Part shown: positions 3 to 8,831 of the stretch, piece after piece
How positions within the stretch are numbered: position 1 is the first letter of the stretch
How the letters are laid out: every line of letters begins with the position of its first letter
NCBI GenBank assembly: GCA_012727735.1
Contig: JAAYGM010000054.1
Coordinates: 1 to 34,876 of the forward strand
Direction: 5' to 3'
From: Bacteroidales bacterium
GTDB lineage: Bacteria > Bacteroidota > Bacteroidia > Bacteroidales > Dysgonomonadaceae
DNA length: 34,876 nucleotides
Notes under the pieces: generated by a model
Databases searched by the model: none
The model's input: the letters and a program-made list of their open reading frames with translations, nothing else
What the model was told of the DNA's origin: nothing
Program-made: the position numbers and the translations under genes

Positions 3-2774
3 ACGGGAGGTGGGCAGGATAATGCAGGAGGGATGAGTGGTATGGTCGGCTTCATGGGCCTGCTGGGTATCGGTGACAATCAGGAAAGGATCATTGTCAA
101 AGGTTCGGATTATGAAATGATGCAGCTAGTTGCCGAAGATATCCGGTATCAACTGGAGCAACAGGAGTACATACAAAATACCCGCGTCTCTTTCATGCGT
201 CGTCAGCCGGAAATCATGCTTGATTTTAATCAGATACTGCTCACTTCATATGGCATTACACGCACCAATATTCTGACTGGCTTATCGGAGCTTGACAGTG
301 AGTTTTCTTCAGGAACCACGTTCAAGGTGGGTGAGGAATCATATGATATCATCATTCGGGATGAAATGACCGAAGAGGAGGAGGAGCAGCAGAATAAGCA
401 AAAAACCATCGATGATCTCCATGCGGTGCAGATCATGAACAGTAGCGGCGGGTTGCACAACCTGAAGGATATTGCCTCGGTCAACAAAGGATATGGGCGC
501 TCCCGCATCATCCGTGTGAATCAGGATAAACAACTGGATGTGCGTTACGGGTTCTTGCCTAGCATCGAACAATCCAAAACGTTGCTTGAAGGGTATCGTG
601 CAGACATCGACCAGCTGATCGCCGGCTACAATCTGCCTGCCGGTGTGGCCATCGAAGTGATCCACGAGGAGGATCAGTTTGCTGATTTTAAATTTCTTAT
701 CCTCGCCGCCTTTCTTTTGATATTTATGATCCTGGCAATGGTGTTTGAATCGGTCACGACCCCACTGGTCATCCTCTTCTCGATACCCCTGGCGGCCATC
801 GGCTCACTGATCGCATTGTTCCTTACCGGCAACAGCCTACTCAACGCAAATACGTTAATGGGATTCCTTATCCTGCTGGGTGTGGTGGTGAACAATGGCA
901 TCATCCTGATCGACTATTCAAAACTGTTGCGTAAACGTGGATACCGGCGTGAACGAGCATTGATGACAGCAGGGATATCCCGTATCAGACCCATACTGAT
1001 TACGGCCATCACTACGATTATTGCCATGTTGCCGCTAGCCATGGGCAATACTGAGTATGCAGGAGCTATCGGTGCACCGTTTGCCATTACTGTCATCGGC
1101 GGTCTGGCTTTTTCAACCTTGTTGACACTGCTGATTATCCCGACAGTATATATGGGACTGGAGAATGCGTTGGAATGGTATCAGACGCTGACGGTAAGGA
1201 CAAAAATCATCCATCTCCTGCTTTTTGTGACCGGTGTCGCAGCCATCTATCTCTATGGAGAGGGTATGTTGTATCAGGTGTTATACCTTACGGTGCTTGC
1301 AGTGCTGATTCCGGGAGTTACATTTTTTGCACAGACCAGCCTGCGTCGTGCCAGAGCAGATGTCGTTGATCCGGCTCAGGAGGTAGAGATAGTCGTACGC
1401 AGCCTGGTGAAGATCTATGATCGTTCCGGCCGTTTTACGCGTGAATGGAACAGCGGCCTGGAAATAAGGAGACGTATGGGGCTGAGTGGTGAATACCATT
1501 CGCTGAAAGATTTTATCCCTGTTGCCTGGCAGTTTATCTTGTGGGGGTTTGGCTTCTATTTCACTTACTTTTATATCGAAAGCAGGTTGTGGGGTTTCCT
1601 CTTCTCGTTTGTGATGTATGCTGCCACACTTTATTTATGGCGTAAGATACGGGCATACCTGTTTTATCGTTATGAAGGGAGCAGGATTGTGAGATCTACC
1701 AACCGCATCCTCTTCTGGAGTATGCCACCATTGATATTGTGGGGTCACTTCAGGATGCTGGATAATCTGCCGATGGTGTTGATAATAGGTGTTTTGTGGG
1801 GATTAGGCATCGCCATCTATGTTTCTTCACAATATCTGTACGGGAAGAATGTCAATATCGAGAGAGTAACAGGCCGCTATGCCGGGCTGAAACGCTCCTA
1901 TTTCCGTATGGTCATGAGCATCCCGCTGTTTGGTAAGCGCCGTCGTCCGTTTAAAGCATTGCGTGGTGTCTCGTTTGAAATAAAAACAGGGATGTTCGGA
2001 TTGCTTGGACCCAACGGTGCCGGAAAATCGACCCTGATGCGTATCATTACCGGTATTTTAGAACAGAGTTACGGGAGCATCTGGATCAACGGGCTGGATA
2101 CCCGTCTCTACCGGGAAGAGCTACAGAGTCTGATCGGTTTCCTTCCGCAGGAGTTCGGGATGTATGAGAATATGACTGCATGGGAATTCCTCGATTATCA
2201 GGCGATCCTGAAAGGGTTGACCGACAAAAGTGTGCGGGATGAACGTATCGGATACGTATTGAAGTCGGTACATATGGTTGAACGCAAAGATGATCAGATC
2301 GGTTCCTTCTCAGGCGGAATGAAGCAGCGTATTGGTATTGCGATGATACTGCTGAACCTGCCGCGTATACTTGTGGTGGATGAACCTACTGCCGGACTTG
2401 ATCCACGTGAACGTATCCGGTTCCGCAACCTGTTGGTAGAGTTGAGTAAAGATCGTATTGTCATCTTTTCTACCCATATCATTGAAGATATATCCAGCTC
2501 ATGTAATCAGGTAGCGGTGGTAGACAAAGGGGAGTTGAAGTACTTCGGTGTACCGGAGAAGATGGTCGATATGGCTTTAGGTAAAATCTGGCAGTTCCTG
2601 ATTGATAAGGAGTCGTTTGAGGAAAAGCTGGACAAATCACTGGTGGTACATAATATACAGGATGGAGACAGGATACAGGTACGGTATATCTCCGGGACAG
2701 AGCCATATCCCGGTGCTGTTCAGGTAGAAGCCAACCTTGAAGATGCCTACCTCTGTTTATTGAAAAATATCTGA
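3..2774 (+). CDS. RND efflux permease C-terminal half fused to additional TM region and ABC transporter ATPase (5' end outside window)
   Basis: Frame is open upstream of Met at 33 to the window edge (TGGGQDNAGGMSG...). RND TM motifs (VVVNNGIILIDYS, SRIRPILITAITTIIAMLPLAMG), then about 6 predicted TMs, then an ABC NBD: Walker A GPNGAGKST, signature FSGGMKQR, Walker B ILVVDEPTAGLD, H-loop FSTHI. Confidence 0.9.
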   Translation, partial: TGGGQDNAGGMSGMVGFMGLLGIGDNQERIIVKGSDYEMMQLVAEDIRYQLEQQEYIQNTRVSFMRRQPEIMLDFNQILLTSYGITRTNILTGLSELDSEFSSGTTFKVGEESYDIIIRDEMTEEEEEQQNKQKTIDDLHAVQIMNSSGGLHNLKDIASVNKGYGRSRIIRVNQDKQLDVRYGFLPSIEQSKTLLEGYRADIDQLIAGYNLPAGVAIEVIHEEDQFADFKFLILAAFLLIFMILAMVFESVTTPLVILFSIPLAAIGSLIALFLTGNSLLNANTLMGFLILLGVVVNNGIILIDYSKLLRKRGYRRERALMTAGISRIRPILITAITTIIAMLPLAMGNTEYAGAIGAPFAITVIGGLAFSTLLTLLIIPTVYMGLENALEWYQTLTVRTKIIHLLLFVTGVAAIYLYGEGMLYQVLYLTVLAVLIPGVTFFAQTSLRRARADVVDPAQEVEIVVRSLVKIYDRSGRFTREWNSGLEIRRRMGLSGEYHSLKDFIPVAWQFILWGFGFYFTYFYIESRLWGFLFSFVMYAATLYLWRKIRAYLFYRYEGSRIVRSTNRILFWSMPPLILWGHFRMLDNLPMVLIIGVLWGLGIAIYVSSQYLYGKNVNIERVTGRYAGLKRSYFRMVMSIPLFGKRRRPFKALRGVSFEIKTGMFGLLGPNGAGKSTLMRIITGILEQSYGSIWINGLDTRLYREELQSLIGFLPQEFGMYENMTAWEFLDYQAILKGLTDKSVRDERIGYVLKSVHMVERKDDQIGSFSGGMKQRIGIAMILLNLPRILVVDEPTAGLDPRERIRFRNLLVELSKDRIVIFSTHIIEDISSSCNQVAVVDKGELKYFGVPEKMVDMALGKIWQFLIDKESFEEKLDKSLVVHNIQDGDRIQVRYISGTEPYPGAVQVEANLEDAYLCLLKNI

Positions 2775-2778
2775 TGCA

Positions 2779-3495
2779 ATGAAAATAAATAAATATATTG
2801 ACTTGACAACCAGCATTGTACGGTATAACCTGAAGATTATATTTGCCGGTAAATTCCTCTGGTTTCTTTTGGCTGCTTTTGCCTTTTTTGCCTTTTTCAT
2901 GTTTCAACAAGCATGGAACAGGGCCGATATTAATGAGGGTTCGATTTATAGCTTATTGTTGTTCCCTTGTTTACTGCTTATTTTCTATCCGGTCGTTTTC
3001 GGTATTCAGAACGATGAAGACAACCGGATACTGGAAATTATTTTCGGGATACCCAATTACCGATACAAAGTATGGGGTGTACGGATGCTGATGATTTATG
3101 TGTCTAACTATTTTATCCTGGTTGTTTTTGCTTATGTCGCTCGTCTTATGCTATACCCTGTTAACATCTTTGAAATGGCTTTTCAGCTGATTTTTCCGAT
3201 GTTATTTTTTGGCAATCTGGCTTTTATGTTTTCCACAACCACAAGGAGCGGCAACGGTACCGCCGTCATCATGATAGTCTTCGGTCTTATTTTTTATATC
3301 TTCCTGAATGCCAATAGACAAATTGCCCAGTCATACTGGAATGTTTTCCTGAATCCGTTTTCTATTCCTTCCGACATCCATCCAATGATCTGGCAGAACA
3401 CCATCCTTAAAAACCGGCTATTCCTTGTAATCGGCGCGATTATATGGTTGATGATCGGATTCCTTAACCTTCAGAAACGGGAGAAATTCGTGTAG
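2779..3495 (+). CDS. ABC-2-like membrane permease, probable partner of the upstream fusion protein
   Basis: 238 aa, about 6 hydrophobic segments, starts 4 bp after the fusion stop codon. Confidence 0.7.
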   Translation: MKINKYIDLTTSIVRYNLKIIFAGKFLWFLLAAFAFFAFFMFQQAWNRADINEGSIYSLLLFPCLLLIFYPVVFGIQNDEDNRILEIIFGIPNYRYKVWGVRMLMIYVSNYFILVVFAYVARLMLYPVNIFEMAFQLIFPMLFFGNLAFMFSTTTRSGNGTAVIMIVFGLIFYIFLNANRQIAQSYWNVFLNPFSIPSDIHPMIWQNTILKNRLFLVIGAIIWLMIGFLNLQKREKFV

Positions 3496-4981: not shown

Positions 4982-6337
4982 GTGAACGAGAGAATACTAA
5001 TAGTGGAAGATGATCGTTCTTTCGGTGCCATGCTTCAGAAGTGGTTCGAGAGGAACGGTTTTTCAGTTACTTTATGTGCTGGGATGGTTGCTGCTCAGGA
5101 GGAACTGGTCAAAACATCATACAGGGTCATCCTGTCTGATCTGCGCCTGCCTGATGGTGACGGTATCATGCTGCTGACCTGGCTGAACGAAAGAGATCTG
5201 TCGACACCCGTCATTATCATGACAGGTTATGGTGAGATACAGACCGCTGTAGCGGCTATCAAGCTGGGTGCTTTTGATTTCCTTGAAAAACCGATCAACC
5301 CCTCTCTTCTCACACTGAAGATTGAAGCGGCTTTCGAATTGGAAAATGAGGCATCTCCTCCCCGGAAAAAGCCATCGGCAGAAAACAGACAGAGCCTTGG
5401 GGAAGAAACAATTGTTTTCGGGCGCAGTCCCCTTTCAACCCAGATGTATTCATTTATAGACCTGGTTGCGCCCACACAACTGGCTGTGATGATTGCGGGA
5501 GAAAGCGGAACAGGCAAGGAGCATGTAGCGCAATTGATTCATAACAGAAGCACACGGTCTGATGGTCCTTTCGTGGCTGTTGATTGTGGCAGCTTGTCGA
5601 TGGAGCTTGCCCCGAGTGAACTTTTTGGTCATAAGAAAGGATCTTTCACTACTGCCATAGAGAATAAAACAGGATTTTTCTCAGCTGCCAGCGGTGGTAC
5701 ACTGTTTCTTGATGAAGTGGGCAATCTGCCCTACGGCGTCCAGATGCAGATGCTGCGTGCTTTGCAGGAGAAAAAAATAAGGCCTGTGGGCACCTCAATG
5801 GATATCGTGGTGGATGTGAGAATCATTACTGCGACAAATGAAGATCTGGAGAAAGCCATAGAAGAAGGGCGGTTCAGAGAAGACCTGTATCACCGGCTGA
5901 ATGAGTTCATGATCAGGGTGCCCTCCTTGCGGGAGTGTGCCAATGATATTCCAGTTTACGCAGACCATTTCAGAGAGGAGGCAAACAGAGAGCTTAATAA
6001 AAAAGTGCGAACTGTATCACCGGAAGCGCTCATGCAGTTACAGGGGTACTCATGGCCGGGTAATCTGAGAGAGTTACGCAATGTGATCCGTCGTGCAGTC
6101 CTCTTTTCGGCGGTAGATTCCATTACAGAAGAAAGTTTGCCCCTGTTATCTGAAAAGAAGGAAAAGCATGAAAATGTGATCGAAGAATCACTATTCCCGG
6201 AACCGGAAAAAGAGAAAGAGAAAATAATCCGGGCACTGAAGAGGGTGAACGGCAACAAGACGAAAGCCGCCCTGCTGCTTCACATAGACCGGAAAACGCT
6301 CTACAATAAGATTCATCTATACAATATCAGTCTATAA
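4982..6337 (+). CDS. NtrC-family response regulator (REC, sigma-54 AAA+, Fis-type HTH)
   Basis: REC (ILIVEDD, SDLRLPDGDG, EKP), Walker A GESGTGKE, Walker B GGTLFLDEVG, GAFTGA-loop variant GSFTTA, C-terminal Fis-like HTH NKTKAALLLHIDRKTLYNKI. GTG start. Confidence 0.92.
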   Translation: MNERILIVEDDRSFGAMLQKWFERNGFSVTLCAGMVAAQEELVKTSYRVILSDLRLPDGDGIMLLTWLNERDLSTPVIIMTGYGEIQTAVAAIKLGAFDFLEKPINPSLLTLKIEAAFELENEASPPRKKPSAENRQSLGEETIVFGRSPLSTQMYSFIDLVAPTQLAVMIAGESGTGKEHVAQLIHNRSTRSDGPFVAVDCGSLSMELAPSELFGHKKGSFTTAIENKTGFFSAASGGTLFLDEVGNLPYGVQMQMLRALQEKKIRPVGTSMDIVVDVRIITATNEDLEKAIEEGRFREDLYHRLNEFMIRVPSLRECANDIPVYADHFREEANRELNKKVRTVSPEALMQLQGYSWPGNLRELRNVIRRAVLFSAVDSITEESLPLLSEKKEKHENVIEESLFPEPEKEKEKIIRALKRVNGNKTKAALLLHIDRKTLYNKIHLYNISL

Positions 6338-6395: not shown

Positions 6396-8831
6396 TTATA
6401 AATACTCTTCTCTGATTCGCTCAGTGAACTCTCTGATCTGTCTTATTGTTTCCCTTAACTCATCTGCCCATTCAGGATAGGAATCCTCCTCACTACCCCT
6501 CAGTCTATCCATTTTACGTAATGGTCCGCAAAGATGATCAGCATCCAGCTGACTGAAAAACGGATATATCCTGTGGCAGAGCTCTTGTGCATTTTTAAAG
6601 TCGTTTCTGTTTATCAGCTCTGTCAATGTCTCCCTGTCTTTCTCCGACGTCTCAACAAATGTTGCTAATATATCTTTGATTACCTGCTCGTCGTTGTGAA
6701 ATAATGTGGTCAGTTTTGGAAATCTCCCATTGAATAGCTCCCCCCTCTCTTCCTGATGCTCGGAGACGGTAAGGATCTCAGTGAGCCTGCTCAACTGAAT
6801 GGGTTTGGTGATCAGACCCCTGAATCCTTTCTCCAGTGCCTTCTCCGTCGTATACTCATCGTAGGCTGTCATGAGCCAGACAGGAATAGCATCATCACTT
6901 TTTCTAATTTCACGGAGAATATCAATTCCGGTGATATGCATCATCTGCATATCCGTAAACACAATATCGAAAGAGGAGATTAGTCGCAGGAAACCTTTCA
7001 CATCACGCGTATTACTGCACAACTTCACCTTAAATCCTTTGTGAATAAGGAATTCTTTCAGCATGTTCCCCAGTGAGGCATCGTCTTCGAAAAGAAGTAT
7101 CTTATCAAAGACGCGGCTGTTCATCATAGAATGCTCTTTATTCACTGTTGATTTCTGACCATCAAGTCGTGTCAGAGGCAACTTAATTGTCACGCTGGTG
7201 CCTTTTCCTTTTTCCGATGTAAGCGTAATCTCACCCTTCAGTGAGTCTACCAGCCCCCTGGTTACATACAAGCCGAAACCGTTACCTTCGGCTTTCAACG
7301 GGTTTTTGATGCGGGAGAAAGGTCTGAATATTTTCTCCAGATCCTCCCGGTCAATCCCTATCCCGGTGTCGATGACAGTGAAGATGAGCTGCTGCACATA
7401 CTCCACCCGAATATGTACACTTCCCTGAAGTGTGTATTTGACTGCATTGGATGTGACGTTGACAAGGATCTGCTTGAGAAGTGTGTAATCTGTCTCAACG
7501 AAAAACGGAGATGAGGTCATGTTCTCCAATTCTAGATGCAGCTTTTTCTCCTCTGTGAAGGGCAGGAACATATTGATCACATCATTAATCAATTCCATCA
7601 GATTGAACCGACTGTTATGCATCTCACCTTTGTTACGCTCCAGGCGAGAGAATTCAAGGAGATTGGCCAGCATGCTCAGAATGTGTCTTCCTGAGTTCCG
7701 TGCCGACCTGAGCTGTCGCTGTTTCTCTTCCGGAACTTCATTCGTATCCCACATCTCCAAATATCCCATGATGGAGCTGAGAGGTGTTTTAATATCATGC
7801 GATACGGACAACAGCAGCTTATGACGGCTCTCAATCAGCTCTTCGGTGAGTTGTTTCTCTTTTGCAAGGTCTATGCGTGCTTTTTGTCCCTTGTTAAGAT
7901 CATCAATGATCAGAAAGATGATAACCAGAATCAGTAGCAGTGAAACTGCTCCCACGGTAAGTGCAAAAGCAAAGATCCTCTGCGTAAGTGATTCACTGTT
8001 TTCTGTTCCCTCCTTTGAGGTTTCTATCGCCTCGTTATAATAACGGGTGATGAGCCGTGATATACCCAGAGAAATGTTTTGTTCTGCGAGAATCAGCTCC
8101 CTCACCTGTCTCTCTATTCCCTCTATTTGTTTTGAATAGGTTCTGGATGCTTCCTGGGTGATGTTCTTCAGATCGGAATACATCTCCGTGTCAACTCTTG
8201 AAGTGGATCTTGCCTCCTGTTCCGTGTGTGATATGGTTAACGTCGTGTCGGGAGCATATTTCGGATCAAATAAATTCCTAAGACGGCTCCAGAAATCCTT
8301 CCGTTGTTTTGAAACCATTGTGGTATCCTTGCTGGTGGTCACCACGATCGAGTCCTGGATGATATTATCATAGGTCTCTATTTTCTTGTCGAGTTCAATC
8401 ATAGGATTTTGTGACCGGAACTGCCTTACGAGCTTATTCACTATTCTATTCTTCTCCCGGAGCAGTGAATCGATGTCTTCCAGCAAAATATCCTTCTCTT
8501 TTTCATTTGAGACACGCTTAATATACGCTATTTGCCCGGAAATATCGACCCAGATTGAATCATATTGCTGCTGAAATTTCCTTTGCGGTGAGACCAGGTA
8601 ATTGTTCAACATATCCTGAGCCTGCTGTACTGATACAATCAGCTGATTGCTGTAGGTTAAGACATTGTTGGCGTTGATCATCTCCTGTTTCTGCTTGTCA
8701 ATGTGCTGCTTGAAAATATAGGAATAGATAAATAGTCCTGTAAAATAGAGGATGATGACAAGCAGTATCAACCCAATTTTTATCCTTATCCGTTGTTCAG
8801 GTGTTTTTTTTGATCCCATATTTGATCCCAT
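6396..8831 (-). CDS. Hybrid sensor histidine kinase with receiver and Hpt-like domain
   Basis: Two TMs flanking a long periplasmic coiled region; H-box SVSHDIKTPL; N/G boxes (SNAVKY, DTGIGI, GNGFGLY); REC (LLFEDDAS, FTDMQM, TKP); C-terminal helical region with CHRIYPFFSQL. Confidence 0.92.
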   Translation of the reverse strand: MGSNMGSKKTPEQRIRIKIGLILLVIILYFTGLFIYSYIFKQHIDKQKQEMINANNVLTYSNQLIVSVQQAQDMLNNYLVSPQRKFQQQYDSIWVDISGQIAYIKRVSNEKEKDILLEDIDSLLREKNRIVNKLVRQFRSQNPMIELDKKIETYDNIIQDSIVVTTSKDTTMVSKQRKDFWSRLRNLFDPKYAPDTTLTISHTEQEARSTSRVDTEMYSDLKNITQEASRTYSKQIEGIERQVRELILAEQNISLGISRLITRYYNEAIETSKEGTENSESLTQRIFAFALTVGAVSLLLILVIIFLIIDDLNKGQKARIDLAKEKQLTEELIESRHKLLLSVSHDIKTPLSSIMGYLEMWDTNEVPEEKQRQLRSARNSGRHILSMLANLLEFSRLERNKGEMHNSRFNLMELINDVINMFLPFTEEKKLHLELENMTSSPFFVETDYTLLKQILVNVTSNAVKYTLQGSVHIRVEYVQQLIFTVIDTGIGIDREDLEKIFRPFSRIKNPLKAEGNGFGLYVTRGLVDSLKGEITLTSEKGKGTSVTIKLPLTRLDGQKSTVNKEHSMMNSRVFDKILLFEDDASLGNMLKEFLIHKGFKVKLCSNTRDVKGFLRLISSFDIVFTDMQMMHITGIDILREIRKSDDAIPVWLMTAYDEYTTEKALEKGFRGLITKPIQLSRLTEILTVSEHQEERGELFNGRFPKLTTLFHNDEQVIKDILATFVETSEKDRETLTELINRNDFKNAQELCHRIYPFFSQLDADHLCGPLRKMDRLRGSEEDSYPEWADELRETIRQIREFTERIREEYL

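Follow-up and report, generated by a model that had tools for sequence, protein, structure and literature searches.

Does a single polypeptide join an RND permease to an ABC ATPase, and if so, to which kind of exporter does it belong? This question is raised by the first gene of a 34,876-nt stretch of DNA from a Bacteroidales bacterium (the window). From position 3 to 2774 the window contains a single unbroken frame of 923 aa, which is open at the 5′ contig edge. Pfam recognized ACR_tran at residues 30-384 (2.5e-58) and ABC_tran at residues 653-797 (2.1e-27) of this one frame, which bears out the uninterrupted RND-to-ABC frame that an earlier note had read from the letters. The complete NBD with Walker A, signature, Walker B, and H-loop described there is present as well, and the separate 238-aa ABC-2-like permease (PERM) indeed starts just downstream, at 2779, 4 nt after the fusion stop. 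The features are as follows:

3..1154, + strand: C-terminal part of the RND2 permease (porter region, TM8-TM12), its 5′ part off the contig; Pfam ACR_tran
1194..1343, + strand: two predicted extra TM helices after RND TM12 (model residues 184-204 and 208-233); AlphaFold model m078979bf3eaf
1389..1418, + strand: predicted beta strand 1 of the NBD, EIVVRSLVKIY, with the A-loop Tyr as its last residue; model strand 249-258, aligned to the standalone NBD N-terminus MSISIRSLNKIY
1419..1946, + strand: predicted insertion in the NBD of about 170 residues (amphipathic helix, four TM helices, one further helix); model, alignment to the standalone NBD
1947..2771, + strand: remaining NBD and its C-terminal domain; Pfam ABC_tran, alignment, motif census
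2007-2033, 2307-2321, 2376-2387, and 2475-2477, + strand: Walker A, signature, Walker B, and H-loop His of the fused NBD
2779..3495, + strand: PERM, 238-aa ABC-2/type V permease; AlphaFold, Foldseek, Pfam in relatives

The fusion gene is cut by the contig edge. Contig C243, which begins with the window, is one of the 309 contigs of a 3.0-Mb genome and holds the 3′ part of a gene of about 1,565 residues. Contig C291 of this genome carries the N-terminal 522 residues and breaks off before the gene is complete, so that about 119 residues, or about 357 nt, are unassembled between the two contigs. Upstream of the partial fusion gene, C291 carries the genes for an OMF, an MFP, and a further RND permease (RND1). 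A third contig, C79, carries a standalone NBD and the start of a large gene termed BIG; the overlap between the end of C79 and the start of C291 measures exactly 127 nt. This overlap and the gene content of C291 and the window show that the organism possesses a full set of seven genes, spread over three contig pieces.

Conservation and distribution of the fusion

A scan of 84,980 species genomes with a pattern-limited method yielded at least 116 relatives, which is a lower bound, and the best 80 of the 116 were kept. Linker and NBD lie in a single frame in all 80 of these loci, which come from other genomes and rule out an artefact of the contig edge, the sequencing, or the assembly. The earlier note had considered a frameshift or stop between the RND and ABC parts; RND sequence is present in the same frame in all but one locus (L057), which is cut by a contig end. 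Walker A, signature, Walker B, and H-loop are kept in 80 of 80, and loci from separate searches showed the same RND-membrane-ABC fusion as the best 80 of 116. Complete fusion genes of relatives encode about 1,544-1,590 aa. The earlier note had asked for the upstream sequence; in the relatives the RND half is full length, and MFP and OMF genes lie upstream. Taken together, the fusion gene is genuine, and RND, membrane, and ABC parts are encoded in one polypeptide-coding frame. PERM adjoins the fusion gene in 78 of 81 loci, while the remaining three end at contig ends. The spacing has a median of 4 nt (102 pairs, none on opposite strands).

The architecture is widespread but patchy and occurs in environmental bacteria, mostly in Bacteroidota and related phyla. 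By record title, 70 of 81 rows belong to Bacteroidota and others to Krumholzibacteriota, Calditrichota, Chlorobiota, and Ignavibacteriota; KSB1 was found among the rows without an assigned rank. Whole-genome searches with a linker profile detected the system in 6 of 396 Bacteroidota genomes, 13 of 80 genomes of the Krumholzibacteriota phylum, 41 of 82 genomes in the phylum of a KSB1 genome, and 12 of 99 genomes in the order of Labilibaculum. In a tree of the fusions, a branch with support 95 separates the Bacteroidota from the rest, and the distribution can be explained without wholesale transfer between phyla. Outside the Bacteroidota sample there are a few shorter or split fusion frames, and those inspected were contig ends or broken MAGs. 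Two broken MAG copies of the fusion (L016 4971-9431 and L129 655-3785), with an early frame end or two overlapping frames, possibly reflect sequencing errors or decay.

The fused NBD is split by a membrane insertion

The last 709 fusion residues were modelled with AlphaFold from a 63-sequence alignment (mean pLDDT 78.8). In the model, two helices follow RND TM12, and then come a strand (249-258), an amphipathic helix, four long helices, and another helix; the remaining NBD strands begin at 436. The early strand, EIVVRSLVKIY, aligns with the N-terminus MSISIRSLNKIY of the standalone NBD encoded in the same operon, and its Lys256 and Tyr258 are invariant in the 63 sequences. In the standalone NBD, only the four residues PNGN stand between this first strand and HALKDINMEI, compared with about 170 residues including four TM helices between the first strand and FKALRGVSFEI in the fusion. 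Model and alignment together thus place the four helices within the NBD, after the A-loop tyrosine and before strand 2, and they rule out that the linker is a plain tether ahead of the NBD. The number of about six extra hydrophobic helices in the earlier note therefore stands in the model, but not their arrangement as a single linker before the NBD, because two are predicted to precede strand 1 and four to be inserted in the NBD. A membrane insertion at this site would be an unusual way to couple an ATPase to a neighboring membrane domain.

The insertion of about 170 residues matched no Pfam family. The linker, which had no consistent Pfam match, is also not a diverged ABC-2 permease: hhalign found it dissimilar to PERM, with an E of 0.13 over 19 columns. 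A divergent KSB1 branch, in which the linker scores 17 bits, keeps the split plan in the order LTIEISNLTKIY, VREW, four helices, and HALRSVNLKI. Two loci of this very divergent branch in a KSB1-type phylum, L181 (11447-16186) and L183 (10945-15714), have a nearly unalignable linker and retain both the split-NBD plan and the gene order. In a quick tree with long outgroup branches, the fused NBDs formed one clade (SH-aLRT 99), and the standalone NBDs were nearest among the NBDs tested. The fused NBD has the Walker A, signature, Walker B, H-loop, and A-loop aromatic residue of a type V exporter NBD. Its nearest relatives are TM_1403, ABCA, and NosF by fold and ABCA by sequence.

The seven-gene operon

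Where contigs extend upstream, the gene order is NBDa (the standalone NBD, 297-299 aa), BIG (about 1,090-1,276 aa), OMF, MFP, RND1, the RND2-NBD fusion, and PERM, and every gene is on the same strand with short spacing. About 15 loci showed the upstream genes, and fewer showed NBDa, because some contigs or stretches start inside BIG. One carrier of the operon is the non-pathogen Proteiniphilum acetatigenes DSM 18083 (L014). Bacteroidota, KSB1, and Chlorobiota share the same gene order, and parts of the operon were also found in Krumholzibacteriota and Calditrichota. NBDa and BIG lie upstream of the OMF gene wherever the contig reaches (Bacteroidota, KSB1, and Chlorobiota, including the very divergent KSB1 branch). 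The operon thus contains exactly two ABC ATPases, two ABC-2 permeases, and two RND permeases, together with a single MFP and a single TolC-type OMF. Positions 3-3495 of the window are the distal part of this operon, which probably encodes an RND-ABC hybrid envelope exporter with a heterodimeric ABC part.

Both NBDs keep consensus Walker A and B, signature, and H-loop motifs. The closest paralogue of NBDa in the genome of the window is the fused NBD (NBDb; 233 bits, the next 134). RND1 is a full-length RND with 12 TM helices and porter domains (ACR_tran at 1-1020 of 1021 residues). The MFP and OMF on C291 carry HlyD_D23 and OEP domains, and the two genes have the same order in other loci.

The PERM model (pLDDT 83) is a six-TM permease with a NosY/ABCG fold. 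Its best Foldseek matches were NosY, ABCG2, PmtCD, and ABCG25, with a probability of 1.00 and modest E-values (0.0045 and above). Pfam ABC2_membrane_3 was detected in 23 of 52 PERM relatives (best 6.2e-08), while the PERM sequence gave only chance matches against the PDB. According to hydropathy, BIG has about seven N-terminal hydrophobic helices, and the position of its large non-TM domain is likewise predicted from hydropathy. Among 14 BIG members, Pfam detected Golvesin_C in all 14, ABC2_membrane_2 in 3, and a weak Peptidase_M1 in 7. The HEXXH zinc motif is absent from 15 BIG sequences, including one C-terminal fragment, which rules out an active M1 aminopeptidase. The combination of an ABC-2-like permease with a degenerate region resembling an M1 peptidase and a C-terminal golvesin domain is exemplified by L135 6507-10337, L114 15962-19333, and L105 1-1092. 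Profile similarity between PERM and BIG is weak (hhalign E 0.029). Strong BIG matches occurred only in genomes with the fusion (4 of 198 Bacteroidota genomes), and two other genomes had weak matches.

Both RND permeases keep the equivalents of AcrB D407 (the TM4 Asp), R971, and T978 (TM11). At the equivalents of D408 and K940 both have Asn, as do 10 of 16 stand-alone Bacteroidota RNDs that were checked. Because the relay residues are shared with stand-alone RNDs, proton coupling by RND1 and RND2 is plausible, and RND2 is probably not a dead RND kept only as a scaffold.

Relation to known systems

Tripartite pumps are energized by transporters of the ABC, RND, and MFS families, and MdtBC is one of the rare RND heterotrimers (PMC8277102). 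The operon resembles MdtABC-TolC and other tripartite RND pumps in having an MFP, an OMF, a Pfam-recognized RND core, and two adjacent but distinct RND permeases. In contrast to MdtABC, which is without ABC parts, RND2 carries two extra helices, the four-helix insertion, and an NBD, and the relay reads D-N-N-R-T instead of D-D-K-R-T as in AcrB. In MacAB-TolC, too, an ABC exporter cooperates with a TolC-type channel and an MFP (PMC8277102). MacB, however, joins its NBD to a permease domain of its own, lacks an RND subunit, and belongs to another fold class. The PERM fold and an NBD near TM_1403, ABCA, and NosF are shared with the type V ABC exporters (NosFY, PmtCD, ABCG, ABCA), whereas here the NBD lies inside an RND protein and appears to be split by the four-helix insertion between strands 1 and 2.

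Within Bacteroidota, the gliding-associated ABC transporter GldA/GldF is a further candidate, as GldA is the best NCBIfam model for both NBDs. However, the scores of the fused NBD (172.8 bits) and NBDa (200.9 bits) are far below the cut-off of the GldA equivalog TIGR03522 (402.6 bits). GldF is a small permease similar in size to PERM. The Gld transporter is not known to have an RND, MFP, or OMF.

No well-characterized fusion family of the kind that the earlier note had allowed for was found in open-licence papers, a scope in which absence is no proof. The passages of the tripartite-pump review on fused or hybrid transporters or on ABC and RND contain no description of an RND-ABC fusion (PMC8277102). 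Each half is of a known kind, the joint architecture appears to be undescribed, and the coupled mechanism is one that we infer. Tripartite pumps are classed as ABC, RND, or MFS according to a single energy source, and a conserved polypeptide with RND and ABC parts breaks this classification.

A proposed machine with two energy sources and its alternatives

The simplest reading of two NBDs and two permeases in one operon is exactly one heterodimeric type V ABC exporter, and two RNDs with an MFP and an OMF would form one tripartite pump, to which the ABC part would be bolted by the fused NBD. We hypothesize that the operon encodes one machine, that its heterodimeric type V ABC transporter is covalently tied to a heterotrimeric RND pump, and that ATP and the proton gradient both power transport by one MFP-TolC duct; we give this an even chance. 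The conserved operon suggests such an envelope-spanning machine with two energy sources. NBDa and NBDb would form the ABC transporter with BIG and PERM and have two ATP sites; the pairing of PERM with BIG is presumed from the gene content. Because NBDb would be embedded in RND2 by the two helices and the four-helix insertion, the ABC transporter would stay permanently beside the RND1/RND2 heterotrimer, which would dock on MFP and OMF and be built as in MdtBC. Most likely, ATP hydrolysis would lift or release a substrate at the periplasmic face, guided by the putative periplasmic domain of BIG, and the proton-driven RND trimer would then move it through the MFP-OMF duct. Subunit pairing, joint assembly, a shared substrate path, and dual energization are all putative; the substrate would most likely be a lipid, a lipopeptide, or another amphiphile. 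With complete ABC and RND sets, the operon is a tractable system for the question of whether two energized transporters hand over one substrate.

One of two alternatives in the earlier note was that the NBD serves the downstream permease but stays attached to the RND pump. This proposal is the best supported one, as fusion and PERM are neighbors in every locus with a continuing contig and PERM has a predicted type V fold, but it missed the second NBD, the second ABC permease, the TolC-like channel, the MFP, and the second RND upstream. A related alternative, which we regard as rather unlikely, is that two separate ABC transporters share the operon, with the fused NBDs of two RND2 subunits acting on a PERM homodimer and NBDa and BIG working apart. 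The gene arrangement would fit, because PERM directly follows the fusion gene while NBDa and BIG adjoin at the other operon end, and so would the closest fold match of PERM, NosY, which works as a homodimer. However, all seven genes co-occur as a set, and genomes without the fusion lack strong BIG matches. NBDa and NBDb are sister paralogues, moreover, as is expected of heterodimer partners, though possible in separate transporters too.

It is improbable that the ABC half moves no substrate and instead acts by mechanotransmission, like FtsEX and MacB, to assemble or gate the RND pump. In favor of this reading, NBD and RND2 form one covalent chain, the four-helix insertion could relay a conformational change to the RND TM domain, and the large degenerate peptidase-like domain of BIG would fit a role in binding or signalling. 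Yet PERM has the predicted fold of a type V export permease and not that of the type VII proteins FtsX and MacB, and the RND relay resembles that of stand-alone RNDs, which need no ATPase. A neutral fusion of neighboring genes without functional coupling, or an artefact, is highly improbable and already contradicted: although the copy in the window is cut by the contig edge and a few MAG copies are broken, the single frame is kept across several phyla with the same NBD insertion even where the linker is barely alignable, no unfused form was found among 396 Bacteroidota genomes, and the median pairwise identity is 74% for the NBD versus 37% for the linker.

Surroundings of the operon

No gene downstream of PERM was shared among the loci inspected. 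A 161-aa ORF lies on the same strand between RND1 and the fusion in L181 (10603-11088) and was not seen in the other operons inspected. In the window, a sigma-54-type response regulator gene (4982-6337, + strand) and a hybrid histidine kinase gene (6396-8831, − strand), both named from their translations, are located near the operon end.
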